A stretch of DNA of 64,000 bases from Ramlibacter pallidus (lineage in GTDB: Bacteria; Pseudomonadota; Gammaproteobacteria; Burkholderiales; Burkholderiaceae_C), in the NCBI RefSeq assembly GCF_015070875.1, contig NZ_JADDIV010000001.1, forward strand, positions 527,144 through 591,143, given 5' to 3'. Shown here in pieces: positions 16,475 to 62,274 of this stretch; position 1 is the first letter of the stretch, and each line of letters opens with the position of its first letter. A model generated the notes under the pieces. That model saw nothing but the letters and a program-made list of their open reading frames with translations. It was not told the DNA's origin and did no database searches. The translations under genes and the position numbers were made by a program.

Positions 16475-16480
16475 TCCTAC
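16475..16480 (+). promoter_or_regulatory. TCCTAC motif upstream of the CigR-like gene
   Basis: A single TCCTAC lies 55 bp upstream of the start at 16535, in the sense orientation. It is one member of the recurrent motif described under the TCCTAC finding. No convincing second copy is seen at +23 bp. Confidence 0.25.
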
Positions 16481-16534: not shown

Positions 16535-16972
16535 ATGCACGACATCCAGAAGACACTGCTCGCGGCGGTGCTCGCCGCCGTCGCCTCGGCCCCCGTGCTC
16601 GCCAAGGGCAACGACAAGCACGACGACCGCCACGGCCACGTGCAGAAGCACGAAGGCAAGCACCACAAGCATGCCGGCAAGCACGGCCGCGGCAACGACG
16701 ACCGGTACCACGCGTACAGCGGCTACCACGGCGCCGGCTGCCCGCCGGGCCTCGCGAAGAAGGGCAACGGTTGCATGCCGCCGGGACAGGCGAAGAAGGT
16801 CGCCGTCGGCTATCCCCTGCCGGCCGGCGCCGTGTACACGATCCCGCGGCACGTGCGGGCGGACCTGCCACCCCCGCCCCCGGGCTACCGCTACGCCGTG
16901 GTGCACAACCAGGTGGTGCTCGTCTCGCGCGACCACCTCGTGGTGGACATCATCCGCAGCCTCCTCGGCTGA
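16535..16972 (+). CDS. CigR/RcnB-like periplasmic protein
   Basis: This 145-residue protein has a signal peptide (DIQKTLLAAVLAAVASAPVLA). A His/Lys/Asp-rich stretch, HDDRHGHVQKHEGKHHKH, could bind metal. The conserved module GCPPGLAKKGNGCMPPGQAK and the C-terminal PPPPPGYRYAVVHNQVVLV are typical of the CigR/RcnB-like family. In Salmonella CigR is an anti-virulence inner-membrane protein; RcnB affects Ni/Co homeostasis. The role here is unknown. GGAG at 16523-16526 supports the ATG at 16535 over an upstream in-frame start. Confidence 0.8.
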   Translation: MHDIQKTLLAAVLAAVASAPVLAKGNDKHDDRHGHVQKHEGKHHKHAGKHGRGNDDRYHAYSGYHGAGCPPGLAKKGNGCMPPGQAKKVAVGYPLPAGAVYTIPRHVRADLPPPPPGYRYAVVHNQVVLVSRDHLVVDIIRSLLG

Positions 16973-19075: not shown

Positions 19076-19687
19076 TCAGCCCGCGATGCGGCCGGCCAGG
19101 TCCTGCGCCTGCTTCAGGTGCGCCTGCAGCGTCGGCAGCGTCTTGTCGATGAACGCCTGCAGGTCGCGGTCGGCCACGGTGCTGCGGCTTTGCTGGAAGG
19201 CGTTGATCGCGGCCATGTGGTCCTGCACGCCGGTGTTGCGGATGAATTCGCGGTCGAAGGCCGCGCCGGAGAGGCCTTGCAGCATGGTCACCTTCTGCTG
19301 CAGCGGGGCGGGCAGCCCCGGGGCGATCCGGTGGCCCTTGCGGCCGACCAGCGCCATCAGCTCGTTGTTGTTGGCGGTGTGGTGGTCCACCAGCATCTGG
19401 GCATAGGCGCGCACCTGCGGGTCGGCCGCGCGTGTCAGCGCCACGCGCGACGCTTCGACCTCGTACATGCCGGCGCCGGCGGCCTGCGCCACGAACTGCA
19501 GGTCCGCGGCAGACAGGCGGGCCGCGGCGGCGGGCGTGGTCGTGCTCGTGGCGGACGTGCTCGTGGTGGTGGTGACGGCCGCGGTGGAAGCGCCTGCGCC
19601 CATGCTGGTCTGCTGGCGCGACGCGCAGCCCGCCAGCGCGAGGGCGGCGACGGCGACGAGGGAGAGGGTGACGTGCGACTTGTTCAT
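19076..19687 (-). CDS. DUF4142 domain lipoprotein
   Basis: This 203-residue protein has a lipoprotein signal (LVAVAALALAGC, lipobox Cys at residue 21). A Thr/Ser-rich linker (TAAVTTTTSTSATSTTTP) leads to a DUF4142 four-helix domain with FVAQAAGAGMYEVEASRVAL and YAQMLVDHHTANNNEL. The family resembles ferritin-like bundles and is common among stress-induced envelope proteins, but the biochemical role is unknown. Two TCCTAC motifs lie upstream in the sense direction (19772-19777 and 19866-19871, minus strand). Confidence 0.88.
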   Translation of the reverse strand: MNKSHVTLSLVAVAALALAGCASRQQTSMGAGASTAAVTTTTSTSATSTTTPAAAARLSAADLQFVAQAAGAGMYEVEASRVALTRAADPQVRAYAQMLVDHHTANNNELMALVGRKGHRIAPGLPAPLQQKVTMLQGLSGAAFDREFIRNTGVQDHMAAINAFQQSRSTVADRDLQAFIDKTLPTLQAHLKQAQDLAGRIAG

Positions 19688-19771: not shown

Positions 19772-19871
19772 GTAGGAAACCGCAAGCGCCGCGCATTCCC
19801 TGGCTCTGCCGGGCGCGCGGCGCCGCCGCCTACAAACGGCCCGCCAGACAACGCGAGGGCGGCGCGTAGGA
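19772..19871 (-). promoter_or_regulatory. Two TCCTAC motifs upstream of the DUF4142 gene
   Basis: GTAGGA on the plus strand (TCCTAC toward the gene) is found at 19772-19777 and 19866-19871, 94 bp apart and 85-184 bp upstream of the start at 19687. This 245-bp intergenic region (19688-19933) also holds the start region of the divergent glycosyltransferase operon. No other feature is seen in it. Confidence 0.3.
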
Positions 19872-34946: not shown

Positions 34947-34975
34947 TCCTACGGCAGCCGCCACGTTCGTCCGAT
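34947..34975 (+). promoter_or_regulatory. TCCTAC-N17-TCCGAT pair upstream of gene 35065
   Basis: TCCTAC at 34947-34952 is followed exactly 23 bp later by TCCGAT (34970-34975), a 4-of-6 match to the same hexamer. The flanking TTCCTACGGCAGCCGCCACG resembles the corresponding region upstream of the gene at 61115, whose product shares a peptide motif with this one. The pair is 90-118 bp upstream of the start. Confidence 0.4.
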
Positions 34976-35064: not shown

Positions 35065-35571
35065 ATGAACAAGACCTCCCGCACACGAGCCCTCTTCCTG
35101 GCCGGCGCCATCGGCCTCGCCGGCGCGGCCCAGGCCGACGCCATCTTCTACCCCGACGGCACGATGGTGGACCTGGGCGAAAACGGCGCCGAAACCCTGG
35201 CACTGGACAGCACGCCTTCCATCGACACGAGCGTGCTGGGCGGCCCGGCGGCCGACGTGACCACGACCACCACCACGACCGTGGTTCCTTCGACCAGCTA
35301 CGTCTACGTGCAGCCGAACATCCACTTCGACCGGCACGCGGTGGTGTCGCAGCTGCGCCATGGCCATGCCGCGTCCGGCACCCACGTGATGGGCAACCGC
35401 CACGCCGCTGCCGCGACCTTCGACGTGCCGGCGCGCGCCGGAGAAGCGAGCACGATGACCGGCGGCGCACCGAACGTGGTCACGGACAACCAGGCCTTCG
35501 TGGTGGGCAGCCGACACATCCCGTACAGCGCCATCACGGTCGGCGAGCCGTACTACGTGATGTCGTTCTGA
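35065..35571 (+). CDS. Exported protein with one RAGEASTMTGGAPN motif, 168 aa
   Basis: A signal peptide (RTRALFLAGAIGLAGAAQA) leads into a Thr/Val-rich region (VTTTTTTTVVPSTSYVYVQP), a His-rich segment and, at 35434-35475, the peptide RAGEASTMTGGAPN. The same 14-residue peptide occurs twice in the protein at 61115-61426. The C-terminus (AITVGEPYYVMSF) is hydrophobic-aromatic. I recognise no known domain. It is predicted periplasmic or secreted. GGAG lies upstream of the ATG, and a TCCTAC-type pair is in the promoter region. Confidence 0.75.
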   Translation: MNKTSRTRALFLAGAIGLAGAAQADAIFYPDGTMVDLGENGAETLALDSTPSIDTSVLGGPAADVTTTTTTTVVPSTSYVYVQPNIHFDRHAVVSQLRHGHAASGTHVMGNRHAAAATFDVPARAGEASTMTGGAPNVVTDNQAFVVGSRHIPYSAITVGEPYYVMSF

Positions 35572-37380: not shown

Positions 37381-37845
37381 TCAGTTGCGGTCGGCGCGGG
37401 CGGCACGCGTGGAGCCACCGCCACCAGCGGCTGCGCCGCTCGAACTGCCCATGTCGCTGCTGCCGGACGCGCCGGTACTGCCGGCCATGCTGCCGCTGCC
37501 CGTGCTGCCCGACATCGAGCCGCTGCCCGTCGTCGCGCTGCCGGCCCCGAGGGCCGTGCCGGAAGAACCCGACGTGCTGCCCGTATCGGTGCTCGCGCCG
37601 GCGGTGCCGGACGCACCGGTGGTGCCCGTGCCGCTGCTGTTGGTGGCGCCGGCCGTGCCCATGCTGCTGCCGGTGGAGCCGGCGGTGCCGGCACCGACGC
37701 CGCTGCTGCCCGCCGCGCCGGCGGTGCTGCCCGCCGTGCCCGACGAACCGCTGGCGCCGCCGGAGGATTGGGCCACGGCGACGCCGCCGAAGGCCAGGGC
37801 GGCGGCGGCCGCAAGGACGGAGAGGGTGGTCTTGGTCGATTTCAT
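37381..37845 (-). CDS. Secreted Ser/Gly/Thr/Ala low-complexity protein, paralogue A, 154 aa
   Basis: A signal peptide (TTLSVLAAAAALAFGGVAVAQ) is followed by a long imperfect repeat of Gly-Ser-Thr-Ala units such as GSSGTAGSTAGAAGSSGVG and GSMSGSTGSGSMAGSTGASG, ending in TRAARADRN. It has no Cys and almost no hydrophobic residues, so it is probably disordered once exported. Paralogue B at 38162 shares the signal peptide and the RADxN end. A GTAGGC/GTAGGA pair with 23-bp spacing lies about 130-150 bp upstream. The function is unknown. Confidence 0.75.
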   Translation of the reverse strand: MKSTKTTLSVLAAAAALAFGGVAVAQSSGGASGSSGTAGSTAGAAGSSGVGAGTAGSTGSSMGTAGATNSSGTGTTGASGTAGASTDTGSTSGSSGTALGAGSATTGSGSMSGSTGSGSMAGSTGASGSSDMGSSSGAAAGGGGSTRAARADRN

Positions 37846-38161
37846 GAGGGGTCCTTCCAGTGAGTGATGCTGCGAGTGGTGTTCGAGAGTGACGGCGTGG
37901 TGACCGCGTCACAGGGACACCTTAGGTGGGGCCCGGCGGCGCCCGGGTGGGGAGACCGCGTCTGGCGCCGTAGGCCCGAGGGCGACACGCGCGTAGGACA
38001 CGCGGGCACGCGTAAACGGCTGTGCTTCCTGCCAGCCCATGCGTGAAGGGCGCACCGGCCGAGGCATGGCGCCATGCGTGCTCCTGCAGGAGAACGCAGT
38101 CCCATGTCGGACAAAAGAAAAAGCCAGCGGCGGCCGCTGGCTTGTGGACGGGACGTGGGCG
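37846..38161. promoter_or_regulatory. Intergenic region between the two Ser/Gly-rich paralogues
   Basis: This 316-bp gap contains the upstream region of gene 37381 and the terminator of gene 38162. A pair of motif copies toward gene 37381, GTAGGC (37970-37975) and GTAGGA (37993-37998), is 23 bp apart. Nothing else coding is supported. Confidence 0.45.
38113..38142 (-). terminator. Rho-independent terminator of gene 38162
   Basis: The stem GCCAGCGG/CCGCTGGC at 38123-38130/38134-38141 with a 3-nt loop is followed on the minus strand by UUUUUCUUUU. Its core resembles the terminator of paralogue A at 37327, consistent with an ancient tandem duplication. Confidence 0.8.
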
Positions 38162-38527
38162 TCAGTTGGGGTCCGCGCGCGGGGGCTGCATGTCGGAGCC
38201 GCCCGAGGTCGCGCCCCCCGACGAAGCCTCGCTGCCCGCACCCAGCGTGGTGGTGCTGGACCCGTCCGTGCCGGCCGAGCCCCTGTTGCCCATGGCCTGC
38301 GTGTTCACGCTGCCCGAAGACGGGTCCTGGGTGCCGGAGGCGCCGAGCGAGCCGTTGCTGTTCACGCTGGAGTCCGCGCTGTTCAGCGTCGTGCCGCTGT
38401 TCAGGCTGGTGCTGCTCCCGGTCTGGCTGCCGCTGGAATCGCCGGCCGACTGCGCGACGGCAACGCCGCCGAACGCGACCGCCGCGGCGGTGGCGAGGAT
38501 CGAGAGGGTGTGCTTCGTGGATCTCAT
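38162..38527 (-). CDS. Secreted Ser/Gly-rich low-complexity protein, paralogue B, 121 aa
   Basis: The signal peptide (HTLSILATAAAVAFGGVAVAQ) is nearly identical to that of the gene at 37381. The mature part is rich in Ser, Gly, Asn and Thr (GSQTGSSTSLNSGTTLNS, GNRGSAGTDGSSTTTLGAG) and ends PPRADPN, matching the RADRN end of paralogue A. It is likely disordered and exported. AAGGAAG precedes the ATG at 38527. A TCCTAC motif (38632-38637 on the complementary strand) lies 105 bp upstream. The function is unknown. Confidence 0.75.
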   Translation of the reverse strand: MRSTKHTLSILATAAAVAFGGVAVAQSAGDSSGSQTGSSTSLNSGTTLNSADSSVNSNGSLGASGTQDPSSGSVNTQAMGNRGSAGTDGSSTTTLGAGSEASSGGATSGGSDMQPPRADPN

Positions 38528-38712
38528 CAGGTCTTCCTTTCCATGCTGGGGAGCCCGGCCGCTCGCCGGGGGCGTGCATGACAGGTGGGGAGCCTCCGGG
38601 GGCCCCAAAGTGCGACACCGGCGGTCGGTCCGTAGGACATCCCGGCGCGGCGTTGCAGCGGTGAAGCAAGTCGCTATACCGCGCCGCGCGCCGCTGCCTT
38701 ATGCTTCCGTGC

Positions 38713-39095: not shown

Positions 39096-39100
39096 TGCGT

Positions 39101-39190
39101 TCCGCTCCGGGGTGCGACCGGCAGGTGCCGGCCGCTGAGATGGCGATGGGCCAAACCCGTGAACTTGATCCGGTTCGTACCGGCGTAAGA
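39101..39190 (+). ncRNA. TPP riboswitch (THI element)
   Basis: The conserved sequence blocks are present in order: GGGGTGC (39109-39115), GCTGAGATGG near 39133-39142, AAACCCGTGAACTTGATC (39153-39170) and GGTTCGTACCGGCG. These form the P1-P5 core of thiamine pyrophosphate riboswitches. Its 3' end is within ~10 nt of the thiO start codon at 39197, so control is probably at translation initiation by sequestering the ribosome site. It should repress thiO-thiS-thiG, and perhaps the downstream exonuclease gene, when TPP is abundant. Confidence 0.95.
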
Positions 39191-39196
39191 AGAGCC

Positions 39197-40246
39197 ATGC
39201 ACCCCTCCCCTTCCCAGCCCCTGCTCCGCGTCGGCATCGCCGGCGCCGGCCTGCTCGGGCGCCTGCTGGCGCTGCAGCTCTCGCGGGCCGGGCACGAGGT
39301 CCACGTCTTCGATCCCGCCGCGCACGCGGAAGCCCGGGGCGCCGCCGGCTGGACGGCCGCCGGCATGCTGAGCCCGCTGGCGGAACTCGAATCGGCCGAC
39401 GCCAACGTCTTCCGCCTGGGCTGGCGCTCGCTGGAACTGTGGCCGCGCCTGCTGGAGGCGCTGCCGCTGCCGGTGGAGTTCCGGCAGGACGGCAGCCTGC
39501 TGCTGGCGCACCGCGGCGACGAAGGCGCGGCGCGGCGGGTCGTCGACCTGCTGCGGTCCAAGGCCGGCGCGATCGGCGACCACAGCCTGCAGCCCCTGGA
39601 CGCCGCGGGATTGCGCGAACTCGAACCCTCCGTGCAGGGGCCGGCCCATGCCTGGCTGTTGCCGCGGGAAGGCCGCATCCACACCGTGCAGGCGATGCAG
39701 GCGCTGGCCGCCGGCGCGACCCGCGTGCAATGGCACTGGGGACGCGCCGTCACGCGAGCGGAAGCCGGTACGTTGGCCACCGACGCCGGCGAACAGCGCT
39801 TCGACCACGTGTTCGACGTGCGCGGCACGGGCGCGCGCCCGCAATTGCCCGTGCGCGGCGTGCGGGGAGAGATCTTCTGGCTGCAGGCACCGGGCCTCGG
39901 GCTGCAGCGGCCGCTGCGCCTGCTTCATCCGCGCCACCGCGTGTACATCGTGCCGCGCGCCCCCGACCTCGTGGTGGTCGGCGCCAGCGAGATCGAAAGC
40001 GAGGATCGCTCGCCGGTGTCGGTGCGCAGCACCGTGGAACTGCTGGCCGCGGCGCACAGCGTGGTGCCCGAACTCGCGGAAGCGCGCGTGGTGCACAGCG
40101 AGTCCAACCTGCGCCCCGCCCTGCCCGACAACCTGCCGCTGCTGCAGCAGGAGGAGGGGCTGACGCGCATCAACGGCCTTTTCCGCCACGGCTGGCTCAT
40201 CGCCCCGGCGCTGGTGGAAGAGGCGCTTCGCGAGTGGACGCCATGA
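39197..40246 (+). CDS. thiO: Glycine oxidase-like FAD enzyme for thiazole synthesis
   Basis: This 349-residue FAD-dependent amine oxidase oxidises glycine to iminoglycine for thiazole formation. The dinucleotide motif is VGIAGAGLLGRLLALQLSRAG minus its last residue, followed by AGWTAAGMLSPLAELE and the C-terminal NLRPALPDNLPLL and GLFRHGWLIAPALVEE segment. The TPP riboswitch sits directly upstream. Its stop overlaps the thiS start by 4 nt. Confidence 0.93.
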   Translation: MHPSPSQPLLRVGIAGAGLLGRLLALQLSRAGHEVHVFDPAAHAEARGAAGWTAAGMLSPLAELESADANVFRLGWRSLELWPRLLEALPLPVEFRQDGSLLLAHRGDEGAARRVVDLLRSKAGAIGDHSLQPLDAAGLRELEPSVQGPAHAWLLPREGRIHTVQAMQALAAGATRVQWHWGRAVTRAEAGTLATDAGEQRFDHVFDVRGTGARPQLPVRGVRGEIFWLQAPGLGLQRPLRLLHPRHRVYIVPRAPDLVVVGASEIESEDRSPVSVRSTVELLAAAHSVVPELAEARVVHSESNLRPALPDNLPLLQQEEGLTRINGLFRHGWLIAPALVEEALREWTP

Positions 40247-52814: not shown

Positions 52815-52877
52815 GCGCACCGCGCCGGACTTCCGGCGGCGCCCAACGTCCTCGTCCGCGGGGAAGCGTCGGCCCCG

Positions 52878-52883
52878 TCCTAC
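52878..52883 (+). promoter_or_regulatory. TCCTAC motif upstream of the CvpA-CAP gene
   Basis: TCCTAC lies 37 bp before the start at 52920, in the sense orientation, within CCGTCCTACTTCATCAG. No matching second copy is found 23 bp away. It belongs to the recurrent motif set. Confidence 0.25.
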
Positions 52884-52919: not shown

Positions 52920-53882
52920 ATGCCGCTCAACCCCGTCGACATCCTGCTGGTCGTGATCGTGCTGGTCGGTGCCGTCACCGGGTGGTCGCGCGGCTTCGTG
53001 TTCTCGGCGCTCGACCTGCTCACCTTGGCCGCCAGCCTGGCCGTCGCCTTCGTGGGCTGGCGCCATGCCACCGACCTGGTGGCCGGCTTCGCCCCCGCGC
53101 TGGGGGTCTGGATCGCGCCCCTCGCCTTCGTCGGCATCTTCCTGCTGGTGCACCTCGTGCTCGGTACGCTGGTGCTCCGGCTGGCGCTGCGCCTGCCGCA
53201 GGCACTGCACCGCAACGTGGGCAACCGGCTGCTGGGCCTGCTGCCCGGCACCGTCAACGGCGCGATCCATGCCGTGGTCGCCGCCGTGCTGCTCCTGACG
53301 CTGCCGCTGGGCGCCCGCGTGGGCACCTGGTCGCACGAGAGCGCGCTGGCGCCGCGGCTGGCCGCGCCCGCCGAATGGGTCGAGGTGCAGCTGTCGCCCA
53401 TCTTCAACCCCGCGGTGCAGCGGACGCTGCAGGCGCTGGTGGTCCAGCCGGAGTCCCGCGCCAGCATCCCGCTCGGCTACCGGCTCGCCAGCGCGCCGCC
53501 GCGGCCCGACCTGGAAACCCGCATGCTGGAACTGGTCAACGCCGAACGGCGTGCCGCCGGCCTGCAGCCGGTGCGGCCCGACCCGGAACTCACGCAGGTG
53601 GCGCGCGCGCACAGCCGCGACATGTTCGCCCGCGGCTACTTCGCGCACGTCTCGCCGGACGGCAAGGACCTCGGCGACCGCCTGCAGGCCGCGCGCGTCG
53701 GCTACCTCACGGCCGGCGAGAACCTGGCGCTGGCGCCGACGCTTGCCAGCGCGCACACCGGCCTCATGCACTCGCCCGGCCACCGCCGGAACATCCTGCG
53801 GCCGCAGTTCGGCCGGCTCGGCATCGGCGTGCTCGACGGCGGCCGGCGCGGACTGATGGTCACGCAAGCCTTCCGCAACTGA
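52920..53882 (+). CDS. CvpA-family membrane domain fused to a CAP (SCP/PR1) domain
   Basis: The 320-residue protein begins with four or so membrane helices of the CvpA type (NPVDILLVVIVLVGAVTGWS, RGFVFSALDLLTLAASLAVA). From about residue 200 it continues as a CAP domain, with LETRMLELVNAERRAAGLQP, HSRDMFARGYFAHVSPDG, AGENLALAPTLASAH and GLMHSPGHRRNILRP. CAP domains of the bacterial type bind metal or hydrolyse peptides in some cases. Here the CAP part would face the periplasm if the helices end outside. It is just upstream of the topoisomerase gene. Confidence 0.85.
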   Translation: MPLNPVDILLVVIVLVGAVTGWSRGFVFSALDLLTLAASLAVAFVGWRHATDLVAGFAPALGVWIAPLAFVGIFLLVHLVLGTLVLRLALRLPQALHRNVGNRLLGLLPGTVNGAIHAVVAAVLLLTLPLGARVGTWSHESALAPRLAAPAEWVEVQLSPIFNPAVQRTLQALVVQPESRASIPLGYRLASAPPRPDLETRMLELVNAERRAAGLQPVRPDPELTQVARAHSRDMFARGYFAHVSPDGKDLGDRLQAARVGYLTAGENLALAPTLASAHTGLMHSPGHRRNILRPQFGRLGIGVLDGGRRGLMVTQAFRN

Positions 53883-59124: not shown

Positions 59125-60099
59125 ATGGGCCACCCTCATGCGCCGAGCCGTCGCGGCTTCCTCGCGGCTGCGCTTGCACTCTCCGCGCCCTGGGCCGGCG
59201 CGCAGTCTTATCCGAACAAGCCCATCCGCATGATGGTGGGCTACGCCGCCGGCGGCGGCGTCGACGCCCTTGCGCGCATGCTGGCGCAACGGCTGGCCCC
59301 GTTGCTGGGCCAGCAGGTGGTGGTGGAGAACCGCGCCGGCGCCTCCGGGATGATCGCGGCCGAAGCGGTGGCCAAGTCGGCGCCCGACGGCTACACGCTC
59401 GGCATGGGCGAGAGCGGCATGCTCATCAGCTCACATCTGCAACCGCGCGCCGGCTTCGATCCATTGCGCGCGTTCGCGCCGATCGCGGGCACCTTCATCG
59501 CGCCGCTGCTGATCGTGGCGAACAACGACACCGGCCTGGGTTCGCCCAGGGAACTGATCGCGCTGCTCAAGGCGAACCCGGGCAGGCTGTCGTACGCGAC
59601 GTCGGGCGTGGGCACCGTGCACCACCTGGGCTTCGAGCTGCTGAAGGCGCAGACCCGGACCTTCGCCGTGCACATCCCCTACCGCGGGGCCTCGCAGATC
59701 CTCCCCGACGTGATCAGCGGCCAGGTGCCGCTTGCCGTCGTCAGCGCGGCGGGCGGACTGGCGCAGGCGAAGTCCGGACGGGTGCGGGCGGTCGCGATGA
59801 TGAACCGCGCCGTGCTGCCGGGTGCCGAGAACGTGCCCGCCATGGCCGACGCGCTGCCCGGCTTCGACGTGGCGCCGCGGTTGATGCTGCTGGCCCCCGC
59901 GGGGACGCCGCCGGCGATCGTGGACCGCCTCCACGAAGCGGTGCGGTCGGTGCTGGAAAGCCCGGAGTTCGCCCGGGCAGCGGCACAGCAGGGTGCCATG
60001 CCGGCCTACATGGCGCCGGCCGCCTTGGCGGCGGACCTGGTCCGGGAGTCGGCCAGCTGGGCGCGCCTGATCAGCGCCCAGAAGATCGTGGTGCAGTGA
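59125..60099 (+). CDS. Bug/TctC family tripartite tricarboxylate transport substrate-binding protein
   Basis: This 324-residue periplasmic protein has a twin-Arg style signal (SRRGFLAAALALSAPWAGA). The family sequence follows: YPNKPIRMMVGYAAGGGVDA, VVVENRAGASGMIAAEAVAK, HIPYRGASQILPDVISG and the terminal LISAQKI. Many such orphan Bug proteins occur in Burkholderiales without adjacent TctA/TctB. The ligand is unknown. AGGAG precedes the ATG, which overrules the upstream in-frame start. Confidence 0.9.
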   Translation: MGHPHAPSRRGFLAAALALSAPWAGAQSYPNKPIRMMVGYAAGGGVDALARMLAQRLAPLLGQQVVVENRAGASGMIAAEAVAKSAPDGYTLGMGESGMLISSHLQPRAGFDPLRAFAPIAGTFIAPLLIVANNDTGLGSPRELIALLKANPGRLSYATSGVGTVHHLGFELLKAQTRTFAVHIPYRGASQILPDVISGQVPLAVVSAAGGLAQAKSGRVRAVAMMNRAVLPGAENVPAMADALPGFDVAPRLMLLAPAGTPPAIVDRLHEAVRSVLESPEFARAAAQQGAMPAYMAPAALAADLVRESASWARLISAQKIVVQ

Positions 60100-60310
60100 G
60101 TGGCGCCTCGGCGTCCGGCGAGACGGGCGACCGGCGCTCGCGCCCGGCATTCCTCAACGAGCTGAAGAGGAAAGTGCCCTGGTGCAGGTCGACCCCCGCA
60201 TACCACTGGCAATAAGCGGTGTCGCCACTGGCGGCGCGCACCACCATCGGCGGGCCGCCCGTCTGCAGGCGGACCACGTCGCCCGCTTCGAAAACCGGTT
60301 CACTTTCCAC
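60071..60310 (-). CDS. DUF2158 (YodC-like) protein, 79 aa
   Basis: The core ESEPVFEAGDVVRLQTGGPP then MVVRAASGDTAYCQWYAG and LHQGTFLFSSL matches DUF2158/YodC, a small SH3-like beta-barrel family of unknown function. GTG 60310 gives the family-like N-terminus and has AGGAGG about 12 nt upstream. ATG 60340 is an alternative. The C-terminal ~27 residues run into the Bug gene's 3' end (29-bp overlap of convergent genes). A TCCTAC motif (60355-60360 complement) lies 45 bp upstream. Confidence 0.7.
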   Translation of the reverse strand: MESEPVFEAGDVVRLQTGGPPMVVRAASGDTAYCQWYAGVDLHQGTFLFSSLRNAGRERRSPVSPDAEAPLTAPRSSGR

Positions 60311-60354
60311 ACCGGGATTCTGCCCTCCTGCCGCGGCCATGTCATCGCGGTGGC

Positions 60355-60360
60355 GTAGGA
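60355..60360 (-). promoter_or_regulatory. TCCTAC motif upstream of the DUF2158 gene
   Basis: GTAGGA on the plus strand reads TCCTAC toward the gene and lies 45 bp before the start at 60310. No second copy is found at 23 bp. Confidence 0.25.
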
Positions 60361-60397
60361 CAGGGCCGGAAACCTCTCCAGCCGCCCGCCCGCGTGG

Positions 60398-60760
60398 CTA
60401 GGCACCCTGCTCCGCCACCCAGCGCACCAGGGCTTCGCTGTCGCTCTTGTCGAAGACGGCATCGGCACCCAGCCTTTCGCAATGCCACCGGATGCCGTCG
60501 GTGACGTAGCTGCTGAACACCACGACCTTCTTCGCCGCGGAAGCGGCACGTGGGATCACGCCGAAGCCGGAGCCCTGGTCCAGGACGAGGTCGATGATGG
60601 CGACGTCCCAGTCATCCGGGTGCTCGGCCAGCCACGACTTCGCTTCGGCTTCGGTGATGGCCGTGGCGACGATGGCCGAACCGCCGGCTGCGGCGAGGCG
60701 TTCCCGCAGCAGCACCTGCATGTCGTGCCGGTCTTCCACCAAAAACACCCGTGCGGCCAC
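60398..60760 (-). CDS. Single-domain response regulator (receiver only), 120 aa
   Basis: This CheY-like receiver domain has FLVEDRHDMQVLLRERLAAA (acidic pocket at the start), the phospho-acceptor Asp in WDVAIIDLVLDQG and the conserved Lys in FDKSDSEALVRW. There is no output domain. The start is GTG 60760, with GGAGG 4-5 nt upstream. It may receive phosphate from an unlinked kinase such as the PAS kinase at 31073, but that is speculation. It lies 49 bp after the 70-aa gene at 60810 on the same strand. Confidence 0.85.
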   Translation of the reverse strand: MAARVFLVEDRHDMQVLLRERLAAAGGSAIVATAITEAEAKSWLAEHPDDWDVAIIDLVLDQGSGFGVIPRAASAAKKVVVFSSYVTDGIRWHCERLGADAVFDKSDSEALVRWVAEQGA

Positions 60761-60809
60761 ACAGCCTCCAACAGCATGCACAAGCTCGTCCCGTCGCGTC
60801 CGCGGCGAT

Positions 60810-61022
60810 TCAGCGCGTGCCGATCGTGGCCACCGCCTTGGCGAACACGACGTCGCACAGCAGGCGCAAGGCCCGCACATGCTCCTGGCCGGCGTCGAGC
60901 GCCTGTTGCGTGACGGTACCCGCCGCATAGCCGGTCGCCAGCTGCTCGAGCGTGCGCTCCGCTTCCAGGAGAGCCCGGTGCGCTTTGAGCCAGTCCTGCA
61001 GCGTTGTTGAATTCGCGACCAT
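60810..61022 (-). CDS. Hypothetical helical protein, 70 aa
   Basis: The protein (VANSTTLQDWLKAHRALLEA, ERTLEQLATGYAAGTVTQQA, LLCDVVFAKAVATIGTR) is predicted to form a helical hairpin, with no signal peptide. GGAGAG lies upstream of the ATG at 61022. It is the first gene of a likely two-gene unit with the receiver protein at 60398. I recognise no family. Confidence 0.55.
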   Translation of the reverse strand: MVANSTTLQDWLKAHRALLEAERTLEQLATGYAAGTVTQQALDAGQEHVRALRLLCDVVFAKAVATIGTR

Positions 61023-61114
61023 CCAGGCACTCTCCGTCAGGCGGCCCGGCGGGGCCGCGCGAGGGATTGTGCACGAGGATGGCGCCCTCGCCGGCAAGGC
61101 GCCGGCGAGCCGGG

Positions 61115-61426
61115 TCAGTTCGTGGTCTTCTTGTTCGGCGCGCCGCCGGTCATGGTGCTGGCCTCGCCCGCGCGGTCCGGCACGTTGGTCGTGGCCGCGG
61201 CGCTGCCCTTGGTGGCGGCCTTGCCGCCCTTGGCCGACTTGCCGGCCTTGGTCTTGCCGGACGTGGTGGTGGCGTTGCTCGTCTTGGCGTTCGGCGCGCC
61301 GCCCGTCATGGTGCTCGCCTCTCCGGCGCGCTGCGGCGTGTTGGTGGTTTCCGCGGCCTGCTGGGCGTGGGCGGCGCCGGTGGCGAACGCGGCGGCGATG
61401 GCGATCTGGATGAGGTTCTTGACCAT
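61115..61426 (-). CDS. Exported small protein with two RAGEASTMTGGAPN motifs, 103 aa
   Basis: A signal peptide (VKNLIQIAIAAAFATGAAHA) precedes two copies of RAGEASTMTGGAPN, at 61289-61330 and 61133-61174. They are separated by a Lys/Thr/Ala-rich linker (SGKTKAGKSAKGGKAATKG) and each is followed by a Lys-Thr tail (AKTSN, KKTTN). The same peptide occurs once in the unrelated gene at 35065. It is predicted periplasmic, basic and disordered. A TCCTAC pair with exact 23-bp spacing lies 75-103 bp upstream. The function is unknown. Confidence 0.75.
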   Translation of the reverse strand: MVKNLIQIAIAAAFATGAAHAQQAAETTNTPQRAGEASTMTGGAPNAKTSNATTTSGKTKAGKSAKGGKAATKGSAAATTNVPDRAGEASTMTGGAPNKKTTN

Positions 61427-61500
61427 GCGATGTCTCCGGTGGTGATGTGTCAGCGCTGTTTGCGCAGCCCCCCAGTAGGCGCCTGCCATCGCGGCGAACG

Positions 61501-61529
61501 GTAGGACCGTGGCGGCTGTCGCGGTAGGA
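61501..61529 (-). promoter_or_regulatory. Direct repeat TCCTAC-N17-TCCTAC upstream of gene 61115
   Basis: GTAGGA at 61501-61506 and 61524-61529 reads as TCCTAC twice, 23 bp apart, toward the gene starting at 61426. This is the same spacing as the pair at 157-185. The rest of the gap 61427-61671 shows no gene. Confidence 0.45.
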
Positions 61530-62197: not shown

Positions 62198-62274
62198 TGG
62201 TGCGGCTGGCAGGATTCGAACCCACGACCCCTTGGTTCGTAGCCAAGTACTCTATCCAACTGAGCTACAGCCGC
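62198..62274 (-). tRNA. tRNA-Arg (anticodon ACG)
   Basis: The minus strand reads GCGGCTGTAGCTCAGTTGG at the 5' end, an anticodon arm CTTGG-CTACGAA-CCAAG with anticodon ACG, a T arm with GGTTCGAATCC, and an encoded CCA end (TGG at 62198-62200). The 77-nt cloverleaf is complete. Position 34 A is normally edited to inosine, allowing it to read CGU, CGC and CGA. Confidence 0.97.

Follow-up and report, generated by a model that had tools for sequence, protein, structure and literature searches.

A putative two-fold symmetric TCCTAC operator and its predicted NarL/FixJ-type regulator in Ramlibacter

Introduction

BvgA of Bordetella is a NarL-family response regulator that binds as head-to-head dimers at a spacing of 22 bp, the proximal one lying directly against the -35 element, and its optimal, strong Pfha site is given as TAAGAAATTTCCTA (PMC7250471). 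The published Gac-box is TGTAAGN6CTTACA (PMC11837529), while the LuxR-type regulator CrbR of gammaproteobacteria is described with the ACTU motif, an imperfect inverted repeat (PMC5715377). No binding site for EvgA was found in the literature searched and this regulator was therefore left out of the comparison.

Ramlibacter is a soil genus with desiccation-resistant cysts. The window analysed here is the whole 64-kb stretch of DNA from one genome of this genus, where the original prediction had pointed out a recurrent hexamer, TCCTAC, often as a pair spaced by 23 bp, and had offered either tandem binding of a response regulator or the promoter elements of an alternative sigma factor as its meaning. 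Judged from the sequences compared below, the hexamer is part of a real, conserved operator, most likely that of a two-component regulon, and it very likely forms one half of a two-fold symmetric site of about GT[A/C][G/A]GA-N4-[T/G]CCTACA. We consider it probable that this operator is bound by NarL/FixJ-type response regulator dimers, often two in tandem 21-23 bp apart, which would switch on genes for exported, membrane and signalling proteins. No description of a TCCTAC box in Burkholderiales was found in the literature searched; preprints and most subscription papers fall outside its coverage, so the box may already have been published.

The likeness to BvgA is drawn from the DNA sites, the regulon and its gene content being different. 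The BvgA site, TAAGAAATTTCCTA, fits TARGA-N4-TCCTA, which is the core of the Ramlibacter box in the same register. In both cases inverted half-sites make up the dimer site (here with a gap of 4 in 69 of 70 receiver promoters) and dimer sites follow each other at about 22 bp (here 21-23 bp in 118 of the 150 matches listed), whereas the Ramlibacter box keeps an extra C, and often an A too, after TCCTA. Full dyads in both tandem positions were seen in some promoters only. The box can serve as a comparison case for BvgA-type promoters outside pathogens.

GacA/UvrY/SirA sites share the same 6-6-6 symmetric geometry, with CCTACA here against CTTACA, and this family provides the best NCBIfam model for the candidate regulator NarL-1. 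However, NarL-1 scores 190 bits where the family model requires 280, and the targets recorded are genes for proteins instead of the known Rsm small RNAs (the RNA search covered the window). Identity with the Gac-box was rejected since the right half is CCTAC, not CTTAC, in nearly all of 68 distinct sites. CrbR shows the same combination of a LuxR-type regulator and an imperfect inverted repeat in gammaproteobacteria; this motif was also rejected, as the listed ACTU sites (TACTACCATCGTCGAAT, for example) differ from the box and CrbR targets are acetate-use genes (PMC5715377).

Geometry of the half-sites

The genome comprises 4.31 Mb in 6 contigs, from which 60 stretches of 20 kb together with the window gave a sample of 1.264 Mb, with genes called by a home-made gene caller. 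The sample contained 70 non-coding copies of TCCTAC. Ten of them lie in one stretch with duplicated rRNA genes (L055) and were removed afterwards, leaving 60 sites.

Exact direct pairs in the non-coding part of the sample were limited to spacings of 21, 22 and 23 bp (1, 2 and 3 cases) and exact inverted pairs, GTAGGA followed by TCCTAC, at spacings of 10, 11 and 34 bp (one each), while no everted pair occurred within 60 bp. Genome-wide, seven exact direct pairs were observed at gaps of 0-30 bp, six of them at gaps of 15-17 bp, and the inverted places numbered three at a gap of 4-5 bp and one, resembling a stem-loop, at a gap of 28 bp. A long inverted repeat at G000:C2:593163-593202 (L068:13163-13202), which starts with GTAGGA and ends with TCCTAC, resembles a stem-loop rather than an operator. 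When the half-sites were widened to KCCKAY and RTMGGM, a second box was present at +23 in 6 of the 60 sites, against an average of 0.28 per offset, and 5 of the 60 had a left half at -10 (average 0.22), two of these five being both strands of one palindrome.

A search for TCCTAC-N11..23-TCCTAC in 59 Ramlibacter genomes gave matches in 56. Among the 150 matches listed, 118 direct pairs had spacings of 21, 22 or 23 bp (30, 46 and 42 rows, respectively) and nine other spacings had 0-4 rows each. A second, minor peak of 15 rows among the same 150 was noticed at spacing 25 and may be partly coding. The inverted partner, GTAGGA-N4-TCCTAC, thus stands at 10-11 bp and the direct partner at 21-23 bp. 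TCCTAC accordingly behaves as a half-site, with symmetry over one turn of the helix and recurrence after about two. Together with the conserved boxes on both sides of a NarL-type gene described below, this geometry supports the tandem response-regulator option of the original prediction. Many boxes have no clear left half.

Conservation of the promoters across species

The dyad GTAGGA-N4-TCCTAC was found at 28 forward places in 24 of 150 family genomes, against 8 for the reversed control pattern. At the 23 dyad places fetched from other genomes, a receiver match lay beside 15 and a NarL-type match beside 15. Conversely, when loci were fetched by NarL homology, the receiver gene adjoined the NarL gene in 28 of 30 (the exceptions being L125 and L140). 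With gaps of 3-6 tried, gap 4 was the best for the receiver dyad in all 28 (gap 6 did equally well in one), and these dyads had no mismatch in 9 cases, one in 11, two in 7 and three in 1. The set found by the motif had included eight of these 28 promoters.

The best-conserved dyad belongs to the promoter of this receiver gene, which is convergent with NarL-1. Of 80 named loci, 10 were dropped and the other 70 had a receiver gene with enough upstream DNA; gap 4 was the best of 13 gaps in 69 of these 70, compared with 5.6% of shuffles. Among 68 distinct receiver sites the G, T and G of the left half and the C, C, T, A and C of the right half were constant in 67 or 68. The DUF1328 operon beside the regulator was present with upstream DNA in 55 of the 80 loci; TCCTAC was observed in 54 of these promoters, in a single orientation at -118 to -155, and gap 4 was the best dyad gap in 29 of the 55 (5.8% in shuffles).

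Further, unrelated promoters keep the box as well. A HAMP-array hybrid kinase of 2,203 aa (11 HAMP, GAF, HisKA, HATPase and two receiver stretches) has a box in all 30 loci fetched from the genus, with 30 TCCTAC and 2 GTAGGA, and its left half at gap 4 starts with GT in 29 of 30 and reads GT[AC]GG in 22 of 30. Many of these promoters (L287-L316) also contain the near-palindrome CCAGTACTGG about 15-24 bp after the box start, perhaps another operator or a core promoter element. DUF4142 genes carry a box in 8 of 30 loci, with 11 boxes that all point the same way. Six of the seven closest homologues belong to these eight loci, one of them being the gene in the window itself.

The exported family of window gene 61115 has a box in 25 of 30 fetched loci (25 TCCTAC and 2 GTAGGA boxes), and three of the five loci without a box resemble internal matches with a misplaced gene start. 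Alignment on the box gave 27 rows, four from this genome, in which GTCCG occurs at +22 in 22, TAAGGT at +51 in 10 and TANNNT at +51 in 14. The second box of this family reads as a dyad in its own right in a minority of rows, a GT left half being present in 9 of the 27 only.

The candidate regulator and its locus

NarL-1 (L329:7314-7946) has an N-terminal receiver (Pfam Response_reg, 94.7 bits) and a C-terminal GerE, LuxR-type DNA-binding domain (59.9 bits), both above the cut-off, which is the domain order of a NarL/FixJ-type regulator. Its best NCBIfam match, UvrY/SirA/GacA (NF007018), scores 190.3 bits against a cut-off of 280 and NarL-1 is therefore not an equivalog member. In all 72 named loci with a CHASE3-HisKA_3 kinase gene inside the flank this gene is divergent from NarL-1, and in all 70 with the single-domain receiver gene the latter is convergent with NarL-1. 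Beyond the kinase lie, in this genome, DUF1328, DUF883, a holin-like gene and a BON gene. Since the receiver and DUF1328 genes sit on either side, the regulator pair is flanked by two box-bearing promoters. NarL-1's own promoter showed no conserved dyad, a degenerate one being present in G000 and G097 only.

A NarL-family regulator is the likely binder because the site and its geometry agree with the Gac-box and the BvgA sites. We propose that this binder would be NarL-1, encoded between the divergent CHASE3 histidine kinase and the convergent receiver gene, with which NarL-2 may share the box. That the main binder is instead another LuxR/NarL-type protein, either NarL-2, NarL-3 or several paralogues acting on one box, appears unlikely. 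NarL-2 (L327:7254-7955) is a paralogue at 66-67% identity, present as a second copy in both Ramlibacter genomes of the family draw; it adjoins a ClpB-like gene that in G097 has a box upstream. NarL-3 (L330:9595-10236) stands beside a PAS-type kinase. Either may act as the main binder: direct pairs are abundant in Ramlibacter only, where the second NarL copy exists, distant NarL-type genes (42-45% identity) adjoin perfect dyads in L102 and L103, and the cluster around NarL-3 has boxes in four intergenic regions. Against this, the dyad is tied family-wide to the NarL-1 locus through the receiver and DUF1328 promoters. The cluster around NarL-3 (L330:4552-13928) is a signalling cluster with a receiver paralogue, a GGDEF-EAL protein, the PAS-type kinase, NarL-3, a penicillin-binding protein and a gene that by eye is CsbD-like.

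NarL-1 was found at 80% identity or more in 35 of the other 148 family genomes. Direct pairs at gaps of 15-17 bp were frequent only in the two Ramlibacter genomes of the draw (6 and 7 pairs). Twenty of the other 148 had any such pair, with 1-2 each except G020, and a pair was present in 8 of the 35 genomes with NarL-1 at that identity versus 12 of the other 113. The large regulon would accordingly be a feature of the genus, as direct pairs are frequent only there. In G020, which belongs to another genus, a tandem array of the 7-bp unit TCCTACT (G020:C12:2456-2552) is the source of 11 of the 13 pairs.

Position relative to promoter elements and the predicted regulon

Counted from the first base of the right half-site, a -10-like hexamer begins at +28 in 66 receiver promoters, most often as CATGAT (20), CACAAT (13), CAGAAT (7) or CATCAT (4). 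The TAAGGT at +51 in the exported family would stand at the same distance of 28 bp past a second box at +23. Around the 60 sites of the sampled genome the -10 score gave no clear peak, with TANNNT at +29 in 4.

These distances bear on the option that the 6-17-6 layout represents the -35 and -10 elements of an alternative sigma factor, as had also been suggested. Promoter elements typically have 17 bp between them, and most boxes lie 30-180 bp ahead of genes. This option is nevertheless very unlikely: the exact pairs are one word used twice rather than two different elements, the 30, 46 and 42 rows at spacings 21, 22 and 23 among the 150 matches listed show no single preferred spacing, inverted dyads are widespread and conserved, and the -10-like hexamer at +28 in the receiver promoters is too far away for TCCTAC to be its -35 element.

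In the mechanism that we propose, NarL/FixJ-type response regulator dimers would bind head-to-head on GTAGGA-N4-TCCTAC dyads, often two dimers side by side at 21-23 bp. The proximal dimer may cover the -35 region, where it would take over the role of a -35 element in recruiting RNA polymerase. Boxes also precede the genes of the receiver and the HAMP-array hybrid kinase, so that the regulon is predicted to feed back on its own relay. Several observations speak against this reading: the promoter of NarL-1 itself shows no conserved dyad, many boxes have an unclear left half, the boxes of this genome give no clear -10 peak, frequent direct pairs are confined to Ramlibacter even though NarL-1 is found more widely in the family, and the orientation bias across the genome is weak.

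Box-bearing genes with a Pfam family encode receivers (L049 and L074), the HAMP kinase, an RsbRD-STAS protein, a penicillin-binding protein and an M23 peptidase, while a third receiver (L054:17372) lies on the far side of its box. Further Pfam families among the box-bearing genes are DUF2927, DUF3606, DUF2383, ChaC, CopD, CvpA-CAP, DUF4142, DUF2158 and DUF1328, and several targets have no Pfam family. The targets had been thought to look like an envelope or stress regulon, and gene names such as DUF4142, DUF1328, DUF883, BON, RsbRD-STAS and penicillin-binding protein fit that description; going by these names, a stress or envelope role may be suggested.

There is nearly an even chance that an ancestral, one-locus Comamonadaceae switch (CHASE3 kinase, BvgA/GacA-like regulator, receiver and DUF1328-BON operon) has expanded in Ramlibacter to a self-rebuilding, BvgA-style global regulon of roughly a hundred promoters, its own HAMP-array kinase and receiver included. 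An operator that is tied to one locus across the family seems, in a single genus, to have spread throughout the genome. With the operator, its geometry and the candidate regulator, a set of Ramlibacter genes for DUF and small exported proteins would become a single regulon open to testing. A convergent network is reported for Ramlibacter tataouinensis, with 82 histidine kinases and 49 response regulators (PMC3164672), and the predicted regulon would give this network a candidate output.

Over-representation and orientation

In the non-coding part of the sample the 70 copies of TCCTAC compare with 24.3 expected from trinucleotides. Counting each hexamer together with its complement once, it was the second most over-represented non-coding hexamer after TCTCCT, the Shine-Dalgarno complement, and non-coding DNA carried it at 10 times the density of coding DNA. 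By raw non-coding count it comes only 4th of the 60 hexamers that its letters can form; the excess exists in relation to trinucleotides that are themselves rare. Extrapolation of the excess suggests roughly a hundred boxes in the genome. The base profile around all 70 boxes showed little except a weak A after TCCTAC.

The boxes had been described as always reading toward the gene, which holds for 12 of 12 in the window but fails genome-wide. Of the sampled boxes between genes of the same direction, 17 point toward the gene compared with 9 that point away (p = 0.17), and the nearer gene is faced by 14 of the 27 boxes in divergent regions. Orientation is nearly constant inside the conserved promoter families and only weakly biased across the genome. 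Convergent regions of the sample contained no boxes after two window genes missed by the gene caller were added, namely 37381-37845, to which the box at 37993 points, and 60071-60340, to which the box at 60355 points. A divergent gene is also present in three of the box regions of the window.

We regard it as highly improbable that the boxes are chance occurrences or remains of dispersed, REP-like repeats headed by GTAG. The inverted repeat at G000:C2:593163-593202 starts with GTAGGA and the raw count ranks as given above; however, flanks differ between loci, convergent regions are free of boxes, and the box is kept at orthologous promoters of many species, which refutes this explanation for most boxes. 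RsmA/CsrA proteins have GGA-type binding sites, and an RNA-level element of that type, to which GUAGGA on the opposite strand would correspond, is scarcely credible here, as the strand toward the gene carries TCCTAC rather than GTAGGA (25 to 2 and 30 to 2 boxes, 54 to 1 loci) and in the receiver promoters the -10-like hexamer is found downstream of the box.

Boxes and putative target genes in the window

All 12 copies of TCCTAC in the 64-kb window lie at the positions originally predicted. The excess over 5.9 expected copies is modest, 12 or more being reached in 3 of 100 dinucleotide shuffles, and pairs with up to three mismatches were not enriched in the window (15 observed, 14.7 expected). 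The exact 23-bp pairs at 157/180 and 61501/61524 and the near pairs at 37970/37993 and 34947/34970 were all found to be real.

The distal box at 61524-61529 and the proximal box at 61501-61506, both on the minus strand and 23 bp apart, precede gene 61115 (61115-61426, minus strand), a putative target whose small exported product belongs to a family with repeats (RAGEAST) and matches no Pfam family; a box is kept in 25 of 30 homologue loci of the genus. Two genes downstream (60398-60760, minus strand) lies a single-domain response regulator, receiver only, with a Pfam Response_reg score of 30.5 bits at a cut-off of 30.2. This gene is of the same kind as the conserved single-domain receiver and lies inside the box cluster at 60355-61529. 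The box at 60355-60360 (minus strand) reads toward the DUF2158 gene at 60071-60340 (minus strand), where the domain begins at residue 19 and the true start may be further in.

On the plus strand, the distal and proximal boxes at 157-162 and 180-185 precede small gene 243 (243-551), which has no Pfam family, and a single box at 16475-16480 precedes an exported protein (16535-16972) with weak DUF1236/RcnB similarity under the cut-offs. Exported protein 35065 (35065-35571, plus strand), a paralogue of 61115 by partial match and promoter alignment, has a distal TCCTAC box at 34947-34952 and, 23 bp on, a proximal TCCGAT box at 34970-34975, where 22 of the 27 aligned promoters have GTCCG. The dyad GTCGGC-N4-TCCTAC at 52868-52883 (plus strand), the sole zero-mismatch match to the widened dyad in the window, lies ahead of a protein with Colicin_V (CvpA) and CAP domains (52920-53882, plus strand).

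The remaining boxes are on the minus strand. The DUF4142 lipoprotein-like gene (19076-19687; Pfam E 4e-37) has a distal box at 19866-19871, kept in L229 and L232, and a proximal box at 19772-19777, kept at -80 to -96 in the five closest homologues from other genomes. Two exported Gly/Ser-rich proteins are further putative targets on this strand: paralogue A (37381-37845) has a TCCTAC box at 37993-37998 with a second box, GCCTAC, 23 bp on at 37970-37975, and paralogue B (38162-38527) has a single box at 38632-38637.

The Rfam search of the window returned a tRNA and a TPP riboswitch and nothing else. The tRNA gene is located at 62201-62274 on the minus strand, and the riboswitch, at 39098-39208 on the plus strand, stands immediately ahead of thiamin-type genes (39197 onward).
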